42,142 nt of DNA from Patescibacteria group bacterium AH-259-L05 (GTDB taxonomy: Bacteria; Patescibacteriota; Patescibacteriia; UBA2591; UBA6264). Positions within the stretch are counted from its first letter, which is position 1, and each line of letters opens with the position of its first letter. The DNA is taken from assembly GCA_027717985.1 (NCBI GenBank), contig JALLOO010000006.1, forward strand, positions 1-42,142, in the 5' to 3' direction. Positions 25,354 to 34,803 of this stretch are shown here, piece after piece. Position numbers and translations under genes: made by a program. Below the pieces are notes generated by a model. It ran no database searches. It worked only from the letters and a program-made list of their open reading frames with translations, and was not told the origin of the DNA.

Positions 25354-25429
25354 TGGGGCGATCTAGGAGATTTGCACTCCCGCTGAGAACTCCACAGGTT
25401 CCCGTGCTAACTATTACACTAAGATCGCC
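25354..25429 (-). tRNA. tRNA-His (anticodon GTG), CCA encoded
   Basis: Cloverleaf read on the minus strand: acceptor GCGATCT / AGATCGC, D-stem GTGT/GCAC, anticodon arm GGAAC-CTGTGGA-GTTCT (anticodon GTG), T-arm GGGAG/CTCCT. A genome-encoded G at -1 pairs with discriminator C73, the identity signature of tRNA-His, and CCA follows directly. It starts 4 bases after the metK stop, so it is probably processed from the metK transcript. Confidence 0.92.
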
Positions 25430-26679: not shown

Positions 26680-27166
26680 AAATGGTATCTGCATATAATT
26701 TCCTTTTTTGATCAAGCATGAACTCGATGATGCGATTTCCTTTGCCGTCTTTGAGTCGTTTGACTAGTTCTAGTTTTTGCACCACAAGACAGGATATGCT
26801 TGTGTTATTATTCCATTCGTATTTTATTTCTTCTGGTAGCGGTGTCCTTAAAAGCGCTGCCCAATCACACGTAATACCGTTCCCAATTTTTGTAAGAAGT
26901 TTTTTGTGTTCATGAGGTGATGGTTGATTATATCCGAATACAGCTATGTTTATGCCGTGAAGATCTGAGCAGGTGCCGATTCCTTCGCTTATTCCGAGAA
27001 GAAAGATTCTTCTTTTTCCTGTTGTATTTTTTTGTCCATTCTTTTTATAAAGGATCCCACTATGATGATGGTATCTGTCGCGAGGCGAAATGCGTATGAG
27101 AAATTCAAATGTTTCTGGTTTAAAACTTTCTAATGCACGCCGTTGATATTGACGTATAGAGCTCAT
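26678..27166 (-). CDS. Conserved-looking hypothetical protein
   Basis: I do not recognise this 162-residue protein. It is basic in its N-terminal third (RQYQRRALESFKPETFEF, then a His-rich RYHHHSG), and its middle has GISEGIGTCSDLHGINIAVFG, a possible small alpha/beta element. The C-terminal ~35 residues (QKLELVKRLKDGKGNRIIEF) look like a helix plus strand. There is no signal or membrane segment. It has unusually complete expression signals for this window: TTGACA and TATACT with an 18-bp spacer, a full AAGGAGG Shine-Dalgarno site (27174-27180) and a hairpin over the stop. It is therefore very likely a real, well-expressed gene. Confidence 0.75.
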   Translation of the reverse strand: MSSIRQYQRRALESFKPETFEFLIRISPRDRYHHHSGILYKKNGQKNTTGKRRIFLLGISEGIGTCSDLHGINIAVFGYNQPSPHEHKKLLTKIGNGITCDWAALLRTPLPEEIKYEWNNNTSISCLVVQKLELVKRLKDGKGNRIIEFMLDQKRKLYADTI

Positions 27167-28406: not shown

Positions 28407-28832
28407 TCAGTGAATAATCTTTGATGGTTCTATTCGTCTTATCTTTAATTTATCAAAATCTTTATCATAAGAAACAACGATCATGTTTTCTTTATAGATT
28501 GGAAGGGTAGAAGCGATTAAGGAATCAATAAATTTTACATTGTACGTCTCATAAGTTTTTATTGCCATTACCGGATTATAACTATCAATAATTTTTAGAT
28601 TTTTGATGTTTAGGATGCCCTTTAAGATGATAACTATTTCTTGTTTTGATAATTTATAAAATTTGCTCATCCAGACTATCTCGGCTAGAATTAAGCAGGA
28701 GGTGCAGGCTCTGATTTCGCCTTTTTTTATTTTTTTAAATAATTCATGGCATTCACGGGCTTTTTTTAAGTCGTCTTTTACGATCGCCCGTAGAAAAATA
28801 TTACTATCAAGGAAATATTTATATTCTTTCAT
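28407..28832 (-). CDS. vapC: VapC-type PIN-domain ribonuclease toxin
   Basis: 141 residues with a complete PIN active site: Asp9 (YFLDSNIF), Glu51 (ILAEIVW), Asp103 (KFIDSLIA) and Asp123 or Asp125 (SYDKDFDKL). VapC toxins cleave tRNA or rRNA in a metal-dependent way. The gene overlaps the antitoxin frame by 14 bp, which implies coupled translation. Length is typical. Co-transcribed from the iteron-like promoter upstream of the antitoxin. Confidence 0.92.
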   Translation of the reverse strand: MKEYKYFLDSNIFLRAIVKDDLKKARECHELFKKIKKGEIRACTSCLILAEIVWMSKFYKLSKQEIVIILKGILNIKNLKIIDSYNPVMAIKTYETYNVKFIDSLIASTLPIYKENMIVVSYDKDFDKLKIRRIEPSKIIH

Positions 28833-29058
28833 ACGTTTTTTCCATGAGCGTTCTTAATTTTACGGGGTCAATTTTATTTTTTATTTTTATTTTTTGAGCG
28901 ATATCGAGAAAGTCGTCGGTAGGTCTTATTCTAATTTCTTTTCTATTTTGCTCAAACTCTACGAGGATTTTTTTTGACTCTTGTAATTTTAAAGCATCCC
29001 TAATTTCTTTGGGGATAGTAATTTGTCCCTTTTTTGTTATAGTAGTTAAATAATTCAT
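28819..29058 (-). CDS. vapB: AbrB/SpoVT-type antitoxin of VapC
   Basis: 79 residues. The first ~45 form a swapped-hairpin AbrB/MazE DNA-binding domain: TTITKKGQITIPKEIRDAL is the diagnostic block. The C-terminal tail (DFLDIAQKIKIKNKIDPVKL and beyond) is the expected toxin-binding segment. It overlaps vapC by 14 bp. Four 18-bp direct repeats lie between its promoter and its ATG, the likely operator. Confidence 0.93.
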   Translation of the reverse strand: MNYLTTITKKGQITIPKEIRDALKLQESKKILVEFEQNRKEIRIRPTDDFLDIAQKIKIKNKIDPVKLRTLMEKTYERI

Positions 29059-29132: not shown

Positions 29133-29155
29133 TCAAGCAGTTCATCTGTGGATAA
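29108..29155 (-). promoter_or_regulatory. vapBC promoter with DnaA-box-like motif
   Basis: Minus strand: TTATCCACA (29155-29147), 10 bp, TTGACA (29136-29131), 17 bp, TAAAAT (29113-29108). Same geometry as at 27556-27603 and 18081-18128. Confidence 0.7.
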
Positions 29156-29257
29156 CTTTTGAAATTTAAAAACACTGCATTCTTGAAATAGTTCGCTTCT
29201 CATCTTTACTTGAGGCGATAAGTTCATGGCGGGCAAGTCTTGTCAGCAAGCGCGGCT

Positions 29258-29310
29258 CTGCCGCAATTTTTGACAATTTCAAGTTTTTCTTTGGTAGTAA
29301 ATTTTTTTGT
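29258..29310 (-). repeat. Copy of the GCGGC-hairpin/KEKLEIVKN tail sequence
   Basis: About 45 bp containing AAACTTGAAATTGTCAAAAA and a GCGGC/GCCGC mini-hairpin. It matches 31379-31420, the end of the HD-domain gene. Here it lies downstream of the 100-residue Cys-rich gene and has no intact reading frame. Confidence 0.6.
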
Positions 29311-29313
29311 TTC

Positions 29314-29616
29314 TTATATAACGTTTTTGCCAATTAATTTATTACTTCTGATTAACTTCTCTTCTTCCCGTCCCCATGATACCCATTTTTTGTTTTTATA
29401 CCAGCCTTCAAGCCCACAATGACACTGGTATGGTTTCCCATCTATTACGTCAGCATTTTTACAGTCGACAAGCCCTTTTCCATGGGCTTCGTCAGCAAAT
29501 GGATGTTCATGATTGTCAGATAGACATTTGCCACAAATAGGATGACCGTCCACGAATTCCATTCGAGATGGCTCAGATTCTAACGTTGATGATAATTCTT
29601 CTGGATTATATGGCAT
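29314..29616 (-). CDS. Small Cys/His-rich hypothetical protein
   Basis: 100 residues, no recognised family. Cysteines fall in two pairs: ICGKC near residue 28-32 and CHC near 65-67, with further Cys and His residues (DNHEHPF, VDCKNAD), so it may bind zinc. The start ATG lies only 3 bp after the end of an attI-like repeat (copy A), and the sequences diverge at that point, so the gene may be an inserted cassette. The shared tail repeat follows it immediately. Confidence 0.6.
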   Translation of the reverse strand: MPYNPEELSSTLESEPSRMEFVDGHPICGKCLSDNHEHPFADEAHGKGLVDCKNADVIDGKPYQCHCGLEGWYKNKKWVSWGREEEKLIRSNKLIGKNVI

Positions 29617-29617
29617 A

Positions 29618-29682
29618 TAACTTATTTTTACCCAAAATGTTTTTATTAAACTATGTTTTTTAGGTGGTGTACGCGGCAGGAC
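29618..29682 (-). repeat. attI-like leader repeat, copy A
   Basis: About 65 bp nearly the same as 33380-33443. The plus strand begins TAACTTATTTTTACCCAAAA and continues through a T-rich stretch to TGGTG and GGCAGGA. On the minus strand it ends at GTTA, beyond which the two copies share nothing; a small gene starts 3 bp later. Confidence 0.7.
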
Positions 29683-29720
29683 TTAACTCTCGTCATTGAG
29701 CATGTGACAAGAATTAAAGC

Positions 29721-30155: not shown

Positions 30156-30224
30156 ATTACATAGATTTAAGTGCAGAATATTGAAAGTAGTCCGTCGCGT
30201 CCTTGCTTGAACAGACCGACTGAG

Positions 30225-31367
30225 TTAAGGGATCTCATAATAAATCGGGTCTTTTGAATTTTCGGTGTATACAGCAATAACGTCGTCATATTCAAGAATA
30301 TCACATAATCTTTTGATTCTTAAAGCTTGAAACAAAGATTGGCCTTGTGTTTGAGCCTGGCGCGATATGGTAGCAGCGCCGTTGTATGGTAACAGTTGAT
30401 TATGTGGATTTGTTAAATGCAGTGGTAACTGCGCTGCAGCTTTTGGGTGGACAGTACAACGTACCGCTGATGGAAAAGCTCTTTTTACCAGTTCAGTTTT
30501 TTTAAGAGTAAGTTGTAGCGCACTATATCTGATAGCTGAATCCAGAAGTTTCTCCCAAATCCAATCCGGCCAAGGAGAGCTAGAATAAATTATTCGTGCT
30601 TCCTCGTATAAGTGATTTGGTATTGCGACATGGAAAATAAATCGACGGGCTAAGGTATCCAGTCTTTCTTTTGCGGCTGGATCGGTTTGATATAATTTTC
30701 GAACAATTTCTTGAATAGCGGTTTCTATATGTTTCCATTCGGGCATATCAAAAAGAACTTCGCGCATGTCGAAGCAAGTAACTTCGTTGTATAATCCATA
30801 TTCATTTTTTATTTGCTCACACCTCGCTTTATAGCGTCCGGCCCCTTTTTTATCACCGTTAGCGAAAATGTCTGCATATATGTATCCATCACAGAGTAGC
30901 GTCATGTGCGCTCCGGGTGTATAAACTTCTTTTACCGCATTGAGAATTCTTTTGATTTGCGCGAAAAACGCGTACTCGCCCAGATCAACATGGCTAATTG
31001 ATGCGCCAGTTACAAAAGGACTCTGGTCCTTGAAAGGTAATGTGGGCAATATAAAACTGATTGGTTGCTGATGATCAACAATGCCTTGAATTTTTTCTCG
31101 GATTGAATTCAAAAAAGGCTCAATAAGGGCTTTTTTGCCCCTACGGACAGATTTTGAAAGCATAATCGCTAGAATCTGATCAACTGGCGCTAAACTTTTC
31201 GTTTGCTGTTGGAGTGGGTTTGCCTCTGGTAACGACAAAGAAACTTGTTTGCTTTCAAGTTTTTTAAAGGGCGAAATATTGAGAGTAGATTTTTGATAAT
31301 TGATGTGAATCGCTTTGAGCAGACCAGAGCGAACCCACTCATTGGTAATTTGTGTTTCTTCTTGCAT
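30225..31367 (-). CDS. Dit1/PvcA-family isocyanide (isonitrile) synthase homologue
   Basis: About 380 residues from ATG 31367; an upstream in-frame ATG at 31424 lies inside the shared tail repeat and would overlap the HD gene by 86 bp. The central region matches the DIT1_PvcA family: ISFILPTLPFKDQ, DLGE, a YTPGAHMTLLCDGYIYADIF block and the following GRYKARCEQI helix. Characterised members (PvcA, IsnA, yeast Dit1) convert the amino group of Tyr or Trp into an isonitrile or formamide using ribulose 5-phosphate. No PvcB-type oxygenase is nearby. The long N-terminal ~100 residues are not recognised. It follows the HD-domain gene with a 29-bp overlap, so the two are probably co-translated. Confidence 0.8.
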   Translation of the reverse strand: MQEETQITNEWVRSGLLKAIHINYQKSTLNISPFKKLESKQVSLSLPEANPLQQQTKSLAPVDQILAIMLSKSVRRGKKALIEPFLNSIREKIQGIVDHQQPISFILPTLPFKDQSPFVTGASISHVDLGEYAFFAQIKRILNAVKEVYTPGAHMTLLCDGYIYADIFANGDKKGAGRYKARCEQIKNEYGLYNEVTCFDMREVLFDMPEWKHIETAIQEIVRKLYQTDPAAKERLDTLARRFIFHVAIPNHLYEEARIIYSSSPWPDWIWEKLLDSAIRYSALQLTLKKTELVKRAFPSAVRCTVHPKAAAQLPLHLTNPHNQLLPYNGAATISRQAQTQGQSLFQALRIKRLCDILEYDDVIAVYTENSKDPIYYEIP

Positions 31368-31974
31368 AATTTGGTGCGGCTTCGCCGCGATTTTTGACAA
31401 TTTCAAGTTTTTCTTTGACGGCAAATTCTTTATCTATGGAAATTTTCAAATCATTTAAAAGAGAAGGAAAGCGAGATTTACCGATTTCAGTTTGTATTAG
31501 TTTTGGAAACATCTCGCTAAATACGCCATGCATTCTTAACCATTCTGATGGCTGGTATTTCTCTTTTAAATGGTCAATCGTCAATTTACTCAAATTGTCT
31601 GCGTCAACAATAACCGCTTCATCGTCAGTATTAGAAGCGTGTTCATCGGCTGCGCGGATGAAACGATTGACGGTTTCAACCTCATCCGGCGAATATCCTA
31701 AACTTTTCAAAAAATCAGAGGCAAATTTTTTGGAATTATCATTTGCCTGCTTCTCAAATTTTAAGAGTTCATCAAAAGTAATTTTTGTGTCAGTAGGCAA
31801 AATATCTCTCCAGCCAATGTCGTGTATATACGCCGCACTAATGAGAAGCGGTAAATCTTTTCTGCCTTTTCCAAGTTCTTTAACCCACCTTACAACTCGC
31901 AAAGCATGGTTCCAATCGCCTTGACGACAGCGTGAAATTTCTTGTTCCGCTTTTGATCTAAAGTTTTTTTTCAT
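31339..31974 (-). CDS. HD-domain phosphohydrolase
   Basis: 211 residues. The HD signature is complete: His23 (WNHALRVV), His51-Asp52 (YIHDIGW), a mid-domain His112 (ADEHAS) and Asp124/126 (VDADNL). HD proteins are metal-dependent phosphohydrolases acting on nucleotides and similar substrates; the substrate here is unknown. The C-terminal ~20 residues come from the repeated KEKLEIVKN tail segment and overlap the start of the isocyanide-synthase gene. That suggests the junction was formed by recombination at the repeat. The start ATG has no clear Shine-Dalgarno site. Confidence 0.88.
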   Translation of the reverse strand: MKKNFRSKAEQEISRCRQGDWNHALRVVRWVKELGKGRKDLPLLISAAYIHDIGWRDILPTDTKITFDELLKFEKQANDNSKKFASDFLKSLGYSPDEVETVNRFIRAADEHASNTDDEAVIVDADNLSKLTIDHLKEKYQPSEWLRMHGVFSEMFPKLIQTEIGKSRFPSLLNDLKISIDKEFAVKEKLEIVKNRGEAAPNYARRNTNYQ

Positions 31975-32063: not shown

Positions 32064-32687
32064 TTATTTTTGACTTTTTGTTTTAACCACGAATACATAA
32101 CGATCGCGATCACCTTGTTTAATTTTTTTTGCCTCTCCGTTGGCTGCTAATTTTTGCCACAGAGATTCAGCCTTTGGTCCCCTTGTCAAAGCTGAATGTA
32201 AGGGACGTCCATAAAGCATTTGCGAAACAGCATTCATGAGATAGAGGCGTCTTGTCCCTAACCCCTTTTTCCTGTGTTCTTTTAATGTTTTAGTGTAGTC
32301 TACAAAAGGCTTGTTTTTGAAGTATTCATCAGGGGTTGAGATATTTATCGCCCCATGGCCGATATAGGCTCCATTTTTATCAACGTCGACAATATAGGTT
32401 AATTTTTCAGTAGTTCCATTATCGCTGTAATTTTTTGTTTGCTGTGCGACAAAGGTTTTGTTGCCGTTTTCATGTTTTATTACAAAAAACTTTTCAAAGT
32501 TTCCTGGCTGATATTCATCTGGAAGAATAAAGCTTTTGCTTTTACCTTCAAAATGTTTCATTATGTTTTCGGGGACTTCATCTATTTCAATTTCTTCAAT
32601 CTGACCATTTGAAAAATATTCAGAAAATGTTTTTACTTGTTCAGAATAATCAATGTCGCCACTTTCTAATTTAATTTTTTCAGTCAT
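32064..32687 (-). CDS. GNAT-like acetyltransferase (integron-cassette candidate)
   Basis: 207 residues. The C-terminal half carries a GNAT-like acetyl-CoA motif (HRKKGLGTRRLYLMNAV, the RxxGLG form) after a beta strand (LTYIVDVDKNGAYIGHGAI). The final ESLWQKLAANGEAK then DRYVFVV resembles the last helix and strand of the fold. The substrate is unknown. It begins 27 bp after the attC-like site and so would be the second cassette of a minus-strand array, but no attC is visible after its own end. GNAT genes are frequent integron cargo. Confidence 0.65.
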   Translation of the reverse strand: MTEKIKLESGDIDYSEQVKTFSEYFSNGQIEEIEIDEVPENIMKHFEGKSKSFILPDEYQPGNFEKFFVIKHENGNKTFVAQQTKNYSDNGTTEKLTYIVDVDKNGAYIGHGAINISTPDEYFKNKPFVDYTKTLKEHRKKGLGTRRLYLMNAVSQMLYGRPLHSALTRGPKAESLWQKLAANGEAKKIKQGDRDRYVFVVKTKSQK

Positions 32688-32713
32688 AAAAAGATAGAAA
32701 ATAAAATTATTTC

Positions 32714-32847
32714 ACTTAACGTTTGCGTATATGCGAAGGCGGACAGTGGTATAATATCTTGCCACCGCTTAGGTGGCAAACCACTGTTTAGTTTGGGCGG
32801 AGCTATCCGCCGCGGCGGATAGCGAAGCCGCATATATGCTGTTAGAC
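32714..32847 (-). other. Candidate integron attC recombination site
   Basis: 134 bp bounded by RYYYAAC (ACTTAAC, 32714-32720) and GTTRRRY (GTTAGAC, 32841-32847), the conserved R boxes of attC. Inside, GCGTATATGCG (32725-32735) pairs with CGCATATATGC (32829-32839). ACAGTGGT pairs with ACCACTGT, enclosing a TTGCCACC/GGTGGCAA hairpin, and a 22-bp perfect palindrome (32802-32823) forms another arm. Length and fold resemble VCR-type attC sites. It begins 12 bp past the stop of the membrane-protein cassette. Confidence 0.65.
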
Positions 32848-32858
32848 GGCGTATTTTT

Positions 32859-33353
32859 TTATTTGAAATAATAGGAGATAAATTTTTCTTTTGATTTAGG
32901 ATTTATTTCCTTTTTTATTTGTCCTGTTAGCTTATCAAAGGTCTCTATTTCCTGGTTTTCCGCTTCTTTTTTGTCTTCTTCTCCTTTTTTGATCTTTGTC
33001 CATGCTATATAACTTTTAAAGTATTCAAGAATTTTTTTATTAACATCATCACTTGTTTCTGCCCATGACCTGAAATAAGTTTTAGTTAGTTCCTTTTTTT
33101 CCTCCCCTGTCTTGTCTCCTACTTTTTTGAATAGAGCCAAATGTTCCATTAATGTCGCATATGTTTTTCTTTTGTATTCTAAATTTTGTAACCTTATGTT
33201 TTCTCCAGATTGATATATATAGCCTGCAATGGCAATAATGATGACCATCAAAGCGGAAAACAAGTCTATGTTTATTAGTTTTTGTTGCAGGAGCGTTCCT
33301 AATGATATTGCAGATACGATTATTGCTCCTATTGAAATATAGATGTGTCTCAT
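32859..33353 (-). CDS. Two-TM hypothetical protein (integron-cassette candidate)
   Basis: 164 residues. Two transmembrane helices at about 5-24 and 30-50 are followed by a long charged, helical cytoplasmic part rich in Lys and Glu with Trp and Phe residues. I recognise no named family; the layout recalls SLATT-like or other small membrane effector proteins. It lies between an attI-like leader (boundary GTTAGAC at 33383-33377) and the attC-like site, so the unit of about 660 bp has the exact shape of an integron gene cassette. No promoter of its own is seen within the cassette; an extended AT-rich TATAAT in the leader (33412-33407) could serve. Confidence 0.7.
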   Translation of the reverse strand: MRHIYISIGAIIVSAISLGTLLQQKLINIDLFSALMVIIIAIAGYIYQSGENIRLQNLEYKRKTYATLMEHLALFKKVGDKTGEEKKELTKTYFRSWAETSDDVNKKILEYFKSYIAWTKIKKGEEDKKEAENQEIETFDKLTGQIKKEINPKSKEKFISYYFK

Positions 33354-33379
33354 AATAGATGTTAAAAAAATATGTCGTC

Positions 33380-33443
33380 TAACTTATTTTTACCCAAAAT
33401 TTTTTTATTATAGTATACTTTTTTAGTGGTGCGCCTGGCAGGA
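33380..33443 (-). repeat. attI-like leader repeat, copy B
   Basis: Partner of copy A at 29618-29682. On the minus strand it contains a TATAAT (33412-33407) that could act as a cassette promoter and ends in GTTAGAC, a GTTRRRY core site. It lies just after the tRNA-Arg gene. Confidence 0.7.
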
Positions 33444-33463
33444 TTTTCACCCCGCCCCTTTAG

Positions 33464-33535
33464 TCTCCCCAGCAGGAGTCGAACCTGCGTACCTAGTTTA
33501 GAAGACTAGTGCTCTATCCATTGAGCTATGGGGAG
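33464..33535 (-). tRNA. tRNA-Arg (anticodon TCT), CCA not encoded
   Basis: Minus-strand cloverleaf: acceptor CTCCCCA / TGGGGAG, D-stem GCTC/GAGC, anticodon arm CTAGT-CTTCTAA-ACTAG (anticodon TCT), T-arm GCAGG-TTCGACT-CCTGC, discriminator A. The genome sequence after the discriminator is not CCA, so the tail must be added enzymatically. It lies between the Xer gene and the attI-like repeat. Confidence 0.95.
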
Positions 33536-33583: not shown

Positions 33584-34528
33584 TTACTTTTTTCGTTTTT
33601 TGTCGTGAAACGCTTCGTATATTTCTTTTAAATGTTGGTCAGTAACATGGGTATAGATTTGCGTGGTGGTGATATTTTTATGACCTAACAGTTCTTGAAC
33701 TGCGCGCATGCCTGCACCGCTAGAAAGCAGGTCAGTCGCGAAGGAATGGCGGATCGAATGCGTTGTTATCTTTTTCGTAACCCCGGCGATTTTTGTATAT
33801 TTTTTAACTAATCGTTGAATTGAGCGTGGGGTAAGACCTGTTGATGTTGATCTCTTATCTTTAGCTGTTTTTTTGGCAGCGCGGTCGTGTCGAATAAATA
33901 ACGCAGGGTCCATATCTTTTCGCATTTCAAGGTATTTTTTCAGCCAATGTTTTGCCTGGTTTGATAGAAATACGATTCGGTACTTACCGCCCTTGCCGTA
34001 AACACTAAACTCACTTTTATCCATGTTAATATCTTCTTTTTTTAAATTACACAGTTCAGAAACACGCAGGCCGGTGGAGAAAAGTAGTTCTAAAATTGCT
34101 TTGTCCCGAAATTTAATAATGTCATTTTGTTTTATGGTAAGCGGGGCGTCTAAAAAGTTTTCTAAATCTTCTCCTTCTAAAAATGAAACTTTTCGTTCAG
34201 AGGTTTTAATAAGTTCAATTTTTTCTGGTGTAAGGGTTTCAATGTCTTGTTTGAGTAAGTATTTTAAAAATACGCGTAAGGCAATTAAATGATAATTTTG
34301 CGTTGCTTTTGATAAGGTGCCGCCGCGCGGGTTTTTTAACCGCGAAAGCCACAAACGGTATTGATGAACAACCTCTGAGGTGATTTCTTGAGGTGATGAA
34401 ATATTTGATTGAAGCAAAAAACGGTTCAGATAAAAGTGATAGTTTCGAATCGTTAATTGAGAACATCCTTTTTCAATCTCAAGATGTTCTAAAAAATCAG
34501 TAATTAATTTTTGAATTTTTGTCGGCAT
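33584..34528 (-). CDS. XerC/D-like tyrosine recombinase
   Basis: 314 residues from ATG 34528; a GTG at 34546 lies at the predicted transcription start and is unlikely to be used. The N-terminal SAM-like core-binding domain (about 1-105) is followed by the catalytic domain. In numbering from the GTG, the catalytic residues are Arg161 (STGLRVSEL), Lys188 (GKGGKYR), His263-x-x-Arg266 (THSIRHSFAT), His289 (LLGHKNITT) and Tyr298 (IYTHV). All are intact. The ~75 residues between the Lys and the HxxR motif match Xer proteins and lack the extra insertion of integron integrases. It probably resolves chromosome dimers, but its position beside tRNA-Arg and integron-like sites leaves a role in cassette mobility open. 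Promoter: extended -10 TGTTATAAT (34560-34552). Confidence 0.93.
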   Translation of the reverse strand: MPTKIQKLITDFLEHLEIEKGCSQLTIRNYHFYLNRFLLQSNISSPQEITSEVVHQYRLWLSRLKNPRGGTLSKATQNYHLIALRVFLKYLLKQDIETLTPEKIELIKTSERKVSFLEGEDLENFLDAPLTIKQNDIIKFRDKAILELLFSTGLRVSELCNLKKEDINMDKSEFSVYGKGGKYRIVFLSNQAKHWLKKYLEMRKDMDPALFIRHDRAAKKTAKDKRSTSTGLTPRSIQRLVKKYTKIAGVTKKITTHSIRHSFATDLLSSGAGMRAVQELLGHKNITTTQIYTHVTDQHLKEIYEAFHDKKRKK

Positions 34529-34551
34529 ACAATTATTATTAATCACTGATT

Positions 34552-34721: not shown

Positions 34722-34759
34722 TTGACACGGTTGTATATTTATTTATATTATGTTACAAT
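34722..34759 (+). promoter_or_regulatory. rpsO: Promoter region of rpsO-NYN-pnp
   Basis: TTGACA at 34722-34727 with TATATT at 34744-34749 (16-bp spacer), or an extended -10 TGTTACAAT ending at 34759. The leader to the ATG at 34804 is short. The inverted repeat ATATTAT-GTTACA-ATAATAT overlaps it. Confidence 0.5.
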
Positions 34760-34803
34760 AATATATACTAAAAATAGTCATATATGTTAAAATTGTAATT
34801 ACT

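Follow-up and report, generated by a model that had tools for sequence, protein, structure and literature searches.

Why does a Patescibacterium carry a gene of the isonitrile synthase family, and what may the enzyme do there? PvcA-type enzymes use the amine of an amino acid and ribulose-5-phosphate to form an isonitrile, and isonitrile synthases are known mostly from secondary-metabolite clusters that include an oxygenase. The gene considered here lies in a stretch of 42,142 nucleotides of Patescibacteria group bacterium AH-259-L05 (hereafter the window). Our literature search found no description of isonitrile synthases in Patescibacteria. The explanation that we favour, with about as much doubt as confidence, is that the gene belongs to a horizontally acquired module in a tRNA-linked island, that it encodes one selected, non-canonical DIT1_PvcA enzyme which performs the basic chemistry of the family, and that the HD-domain gene that overlaps it is a bystander.

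The gene and its start codon

30225..31367, minus strand: coding sequence of the non-canonical, isonitrile-synthase-like DIT1_PvcA protein, 380 aa from the ATG at 31367 (PF05141 and PDB matches, dN/dS)

The initial annotation, made from the sequence, had called this gene a DIT1/PvcA homologue and proposed a search with PF05141. The profile search of the window proteins gives a significant match to PF05141 (DIT1_PvcA) of 68.4 bits (cut-off 26.4, E 9e-19), which covers positions 1–251 of the 273 of the profile and residues 112–353 counted in the frame that begins at a TTG codon (30225–31424, minus strand); the motif residues given below are counted in the 380-aa protein. The only phmmer matches in the PDB are PvcA (3e59) and the isonitrile synthases 9dhm and 9dh4, with E about 2e-10, and a three-member profile reaches E 2.6e-17. 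The assignment to the family is thus borne out.

The start codon was examined by comparison with a copy of the gene from the same genus (locus L021, from AH-259-L07). Within the coding sequence the two copies differ at 31, 7 and 87 first, second and third codon positions, and the corresponding numbers for the 57 nt that precede the ATG at 31367 are 2, 4 and 4. Because these upstream differences, over 57 nt only, show no codon periodicity, the TTG at 31424 was dropped and the true start is probably the ATG at 31367. The dN of 0.042 is low compared to the dS of 0.475 (NG86; dN/dS about 0.09), hence the gene is intact and under purifying selection. Judging from its sequence, the protein is a real, intact and divergent member of the DIT1_PvcA family in an unexpected host.

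Conserved residues and relation to the canonical enzymes

31029..31049, minus strand: LPTLPFK, residues 107–113; P111 and K113 are invariant in 19 of 19 aligned sequences
30975..30986, minus strand: DLGE, residues 128–131; D128 and E131 are invariant in 19 of 19 sequences
30885..30917, minus strand: PGAHMTLLCDG, residues 151–161, identified in the alignment
30441..30461, minus strand: RCTVHPK, residues 303–309; the canonical enzymes have R303 and H307 as well, and the ROK-linked clade has lost both

The blocks that the initial annotation had listed are all present (LPFK at 110–113, DLGE at 128–131, PGA at 151–153 and DG at 160–161), and RCTVHP (303–308), which corresponds to RxxxHP, is found in addition. 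The residues that are invariant across all sampled clades, namely P and K of FPxK, D and E of DxxE, G of PG, a Y, and P of LP/TP, occur here as P111, K113, D128, E131, G152, Y179 and P327. The window protein also has D160, R303, H307 and P308 in common with PvcA. Since R303 and H307 are kept in the window clade, as they are in a clade of HTH fusions, and lost in the ROK-linked clade (both described below), the window clade is nearer to the canonical enzymes at these positions than the ROK-linked clade is. We found no paper that assigns catalytic residues in PvcA-type enzymes, and therefore name none as catalytic. An AlphaFold2 model built from a two-row alignment only has a mean pLDDT of 35 and a pTM of 0.33, values too low for the model to be of use.

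The PvcA/IsnA/AmbI synthases (PF05141; 3e59, 9dh4, 9dhm) share with the window protein a domain of about 240 residues and the motifs LPxxPxK, DxxE, PG, DG and RxxxHP. In contrast, the window protein belongs to a separate clade, lacks QRSxAW, TPWHG and an adjacent oxygenase gene, and has an N-terminal region of about 90 residues outside the PDB match. It keeps 20 of the 61 columns that are invariant in canonical sequences, including K113, D128, E131, D160, R303 and H307; RxxxHP is kept, QRSxAW is replaced by QLTLKK, and TPWHG by LPYNG. The small number of columns kept and the two changed motifs count against the reading that we favour, in which the basic chemistry of the family is retained.

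It is unlikely that the protein is a standard isonitrile synthase for tyrosine or tryptophan, with the partner oxygenase encoded elsewhere in the genome. The matches to PF05141 and to PvcA-type structures agree with this reading, but the score against the equivalog model of PvcA (NCBIfam NF045653, TyIsonSynPvcA) is 49.4 bits, far below the cut-off of 600. A maximum-likelihood tree built from 19 sequences places the canonical enzymes (five: PvcA, 9dhm and sequences from Burkholderia, Hymenobacter and Embleya) in a 100/100 group without the window protein, which forms a 100/99 group of its own with the L021 copy and a homologue from genome G565. The other groups are that of the HTH fusions and one that includes the ROK-linked enzymes. 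A grouping with the canonical set is not rejected by the AU test (p 0.27), nor is a grouping with the HTH fusions (p 0.39), and the order of the window, canonical, HTH and ROK groups is not resolved by these sequences. No PF02668 oxygenase (the Fe/2OG enzymes of the PvcB/IsnB type) is found among the neighbouring proteins scanned in the window, as the initial annotation had noted of the missing partner. By model and by tree, the window protein thus appears to be a PF05141 member which is not a canonical PvcA-type synthase.

Distribution and other branches of the family

The gene was described as unexpected in a Patescibacterium, and the genome scans agree: PF05141 matches at E<=0.001 are found in 10 of 380 genomes of the phylum (6 above the Pfam cut-off) and in 15 of 381 genomes of the class (9 above the cut-off). 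At the level of the order, the gene is present in 2 of 26 genomes, both of this genus. The second carrier, which came from the genome scan, is Patescibacteria group bacterium AH-259-L07, deposited separately, whose copy is 89% identical. The next closest homologue (206 bits, 32% identity) is that of G565, from another family of the class. This patchy distribution fits horizontal acquisition. The window gene has no match in phages or viral contigs and none in PHROGs, and its plasmid-borne bacterial relatives are distant (about 22% identity); a phage or plasmid origin was therefore set aside. A role in defence was dropped because PADLOC returns no match for the gene, the HD protein or the GNAT-like protein; one weak PbeC match is returned for 26681–27166.

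In G565 (locus L041, 5336–8632), the DIT1_PvcA-like gene is preceded by a radical SAM gene and followed by a FAD/NAD-binding reductase gene, all on the same strand; the two products are possible partners of that enzyme.

Three Patescibacteria (G339, G324 and G635) have fusions of a MerR-type HTH with the same domain, in which the R and H of RxxxHP are kept. These proteins of about 593 aa differ from the window protein by the N-terminal HTH and a C-terminal extension, and are distant from the window clade (23–24% identity). In G339 and G635 the next gene encodes an O-methyltransferase. The fusion loci are L015 (6723–9656), L042 (6801–9434) and L014 (742–2523), with the O-methyltransferase gene directly 3' in the first two.

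Another branch, found in Microvirga, Agrobacterium and genomes G007 and G526, has the same domain and its core K, D and E, but the R and H of RxxxHP are replaced, and the genes adjoin a ROK kinase gene and sugar genes, unlike the window gene. On a plasmid of Microvirga lotononidis (L049, 3151–11723), a single run comprises a TRAP transporter, a DIT1_PvcA gene, a ROK kinase, a second DIT1_PvcA gene, zwf (glucose-6-phosphate dehydrogenase) and pgl (6-phosphogluconolactonase). An Agrobacterium plasmid (L048) has TRAP, DIT1_PvcA and ROK genes, with SIS-domain isomerases near. These two loci look like an undescribed, sugar-linked branch of the isonitrile synthase family. A conserved cluster of Patescibacteria (L016, 7550–12358, and L040, 7193–11110) combines one or two HAD phosphatases, a DIT1_PvcA protein, a ROK kinase and another, very divergent protein whose motifs resemble those of DIT1_PvcA.

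The neighbours of the non-canonical relatives are thus ROK kinases, HAD phosphatases and phosphosugar isomerases, with zwf and pgl in Microvirga. This gene content supports a sugar-phosphate co-substrate for these relatives, and not directly for the window clade. It also bears on a second explanation, in which the fold would have been repurposed for sugar-phosphate/amine chemistry that forms no isonitrile, such as direct N-formylation or a reaction that rearranges or cleaves an amino-sugar phosphate. The association of non-canonical members with these enzymes, which include those of the oxidative pentose-phosphate pathway, and the loss of the canonical-only motifs from the window protein argue for it. 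A precedent for direct N-formylation also exists: yeast Dit1, of the same Pfam family as the window protein (PMC7345447, PMC5974471), has been argued not to be an isocyanide synthase and to give formyl-tyrosine (PMC7345447). Dit1 is eukaryotic, works with the P450 Dit2, and is likened to the window protein by family only; by analogy, it indicates that membership in PF05141 is no guarantee of isonitrile formation, which also counts against the reading that we favour. On the other side, R303 and H307 are retained in the window clade and lost from the ROK clade, and the window gene has none of these sugar genes in its vicinity. The repurposed fold is a doubtful explanation, to be taken seriously all the same.

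A variable island between two tRNA genes

33463..33535, minus strand: tRNA-Arg(TCT), the xer-proximal edge of the island (Rfam)
25354..25428, minus strand: tRNA-His, which bounds the island on its far side; in G573 and G628 it adjoins tRNA-Arg
33584..34546, minus strand: tyrosine recombinase of the Xer family, which is conserved throughout the order; the models do not place it among integron integrases

The genes xer, tRNA-Arg(TCT) and tRNA-His(GTG) directly adjoin one another in G573, which is from the same family, and the gene after them has its match at 20.0–21.0 kb of the window; in G628 both tRNA genes also adjoin xer. Since the two tRNA genes, adjacent in G573, are 8 kb apart in the window, the DIT1_PvcA gene sits in a variable 8-kb island between them. 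A search with Rfam over 25.0–35.2 kb finds these two tRNAs only. In AH-259-L07, the gene is on the same xer and tRNA-Arg flank, with other genes between tRNA-Arg and the isonitrile-synthase-like gene, and another contig of that genome contains the GNAT-like gene, the short 30.1-kb gene and the SDR gene of the island in a different arrangement. The island also encodes, at 28407–29058, a PIN-domain protein that overlaps an AbrB-like frame, likely a toxin–antitoxin pair of the VapBC type.

The patchy distribution, and a genome assembly of 63 contigs which is 77.5% complete, would also fit an error of binning or assembly that placed foreign DNA in a Patescibacterial bin. However, the contig has the core order rpsO, NYN, pnp, xer, as in G573 and G628, and the gene is found on the same core flank in two assemblies, so misbinning is most improbable. 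An acquired module in the island remains the reading that we favour.

Repeats and an attC-like site

31368..31431, minus strand: 5' half of the dispersed repeat D2, with the hairpin GCGGCGAAGCCGC; it precedes the gene and also encodes the C-terminal end of the HD frame
30169..30224, minus strand: 3' half of repeat D2, after the gene; nucleotide homology with L021 stops at 30169
29150..29310, minus strand: copy of repeat D2 in which the two halves are present and enclose no gene, identified by repeat comparison
33370..33446, minus strand: direct repeat D1, next to tRNA-Arg; a second copy (81%) lies at 29608–29684
32704..32850, minus strand: attC-like site (GTCTAAC ... GTTAAGT, arms GCATATATGC/GCATATACGC), upstream of the GNAT-like gene

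The nucleotide homology between the window and L021 begins at 31424 and stops at 30169, ends which coincide with the halves of repeat D2. Copies of the repeat without the gene also exist (one at 29150–29310 in the window and two in locus L099, with a partial copy on contig 62). From these two observations, the DIT1_PvcA gene can be described as a module inside a dispersed repeat, or between its halves.

Repeat D1 measures 77 nt and has only two copies in the genome; their upstream parts resemble tRNA 3' ends, and the similarity ends near an AAG-TTA step in both.

The attC-like site is the only candidate of its type on that strand of the window, compared to 0.4 expected in shuffled sequences, and its bottom strand folds into a hairpin with a z of −4.7. 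In L099 (2318–2440), a hairpin with paired ends precedes the same GNAT-like gene, with a z of −1.6. The genes that precede these two sites differ; the 3' halves of the sites match and the 5' halves differ. A 21-nt inverted repeat (32841–32861 and 33363–33383) flanks a small membrane gene.

The presence of an attC-like hairpin before the GNAT-like gene in two genomes resembles the organization of integron cassettes, such as those of archaeal integrons (PMC9668308) and CALINs (PMC7923331). It differs in that only one attC-like site was found in the window, in that the neighbouring recombinase is not of the IntI type by model, and in that the DIT1_PvcA module is bounded by another repeat. The neighbouring recombinase scores 237 bits as XerC and 226 as XerA (cut-off 220), compared to 138 bits as an integron integrase (cut-off 265), and most genomes of the order have one match to it at E<=1e-60. 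As it is of the Xer type, the reading of a canonical integron was dropped and only an attC-like site is claimed. The attC-like sites suggest that integron-like cassettes exist in Patescibacteria, a phylum for which our literature search found no integron described.

Upstream of xer, a 35-nt AT-rich, dif-like stretch (34727–34761) is 94% identical between the window and L021, while the surrounding DNA has diverged.

The HD and GNAT-like genes

31339..31974, minus strand: HD-domain phosphohydrolase-like frame; the HD motif and Asp126 are kept, the last 26 residues or so are repeat-derived
32064..32687, minus strand: weakly GNAT-like protein of 207 aa, which co-occurs with the enzyme type in the window genome (G000), G674 and G565

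The overlap between the HD gene and the DIT1_PvcA gene that had been described does exist: both are on the same strand, and the frames (31339–31974 and 30225–31424) share 86 nt when the TTG is taken as the start codon, and about 29 nt with the ATG at 31367 instead. This arrangement, together with the short gaps and the co-occurrence of the GNAT-like gene, is what speaks for a dedicated tailoring or regulatory set made of the HD hydrolase, the GNAT protein and the isonitrile-synthase-like gene.

The closest relatives of the HD protein have 184–205 aa, and their alignment to it stops where it enters the repeat; its extra C-terminal residues (about 26) are the translated repeat and are missing from these relatives. 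The HD gene is not upstream of the DIT1_PvcA gene in AH-259-L07, and the loci of the closest HD relatives contain no PF05141 gene. On these three grounds an operon of the two genes was rejected, the HD gene is best regarded as a bystander rather than a conserved partner, and its overlap with the DIT1_PvcA gene is probably accidental, the result of read-through into a dispersed repeat. The proposal that the HD protein is a tailoring or regulatory partner is thus not supported, in view of the second genome and of the repeat origin of the overlap.

The neighbour survey that had been suggested leaves more room for the GNAT-like gene. It is found in 3 of 286 genomes of the class (the window genome, G565 and G585, where the frame is broken) and also in G674 (94%), so that it is present in all three genomes with the window enzyme type, which represent two lineages. 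In G565 it is on the same contig as the isonitrile-synthase-like gene, about 3.7 kb away. The part of the proposal that concerned the GNAT protein is therefore partly supported by co-occurrence; against it, the gene is not adjacent to the DIT1_PvcA gene, the order of the modules is different in G674, and the assignment to GNAT rests on the appearance of the motif and on weak scores (the window protein has E 0.023, the best member 0.0022). Taken as a whole, a dedicated set of the three genes is very unlikely.

Possible reaction

We return to the favoured reading, an acquired module with a non-canonical enzyme that keeps the basic chemistry of the family. Because the core residues are conserved, the reaction that the enzyme has most likely retained is the joining of an amine and a ketose phosphate, for instance ribulose-5-phosphate. 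In the mechanism that we propose, a primary amine would attack ribulose-5-phosphate or a close relative, and one carbon would then be moved to the amine nitrogen to give an isonitrile; alternatively, hydration of the isonitrile would lead to an N-formyl amine. Since no dedicated oxygenase is encoded nearby, the pathway may end with the simple isonitrile or formamide itself; alternatively, the amine or the product may be a substrate of the GNAT-like protein. The genes rpe and rpiB are side by side in the window genome (contig C16), so this cell can, as predicted from its genes, make ribulose-5-phosphate. A point against the favoured reading is that the links to sugar genes described above belong to the ROK clade and not to the window clade.

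Meaning for Patescibacteria and for the family

The DIT1_PvcA module is a concrete case of the traffic of gene modules in Patescibacteria. A broader interpretation, which we put forward tentatively and consider rather improbable in its entirety, is that these bacteria have, next to xer and tRNA-Arg, a cassette island in which recombination shuffles modules of one gene each from strain to strain, and that one of the modules encodes a new class of ketose-phosphate-dependent, amine-modifying enzyme, which would stand for a wider, undescribed branch of the isonitrile synthase family in sugar-phosphate rather than secondary metabolism. The window clade, together with the relatives linked to ROK kinases and to the pentose-phosphate pathway, suggests a wider and largely undescribed role of the family. 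One acquired gene may be enough for an ultra-small and presumably host-dependent bacterium to make a metabolite that is N-formylated, or reactive and metal-binding.
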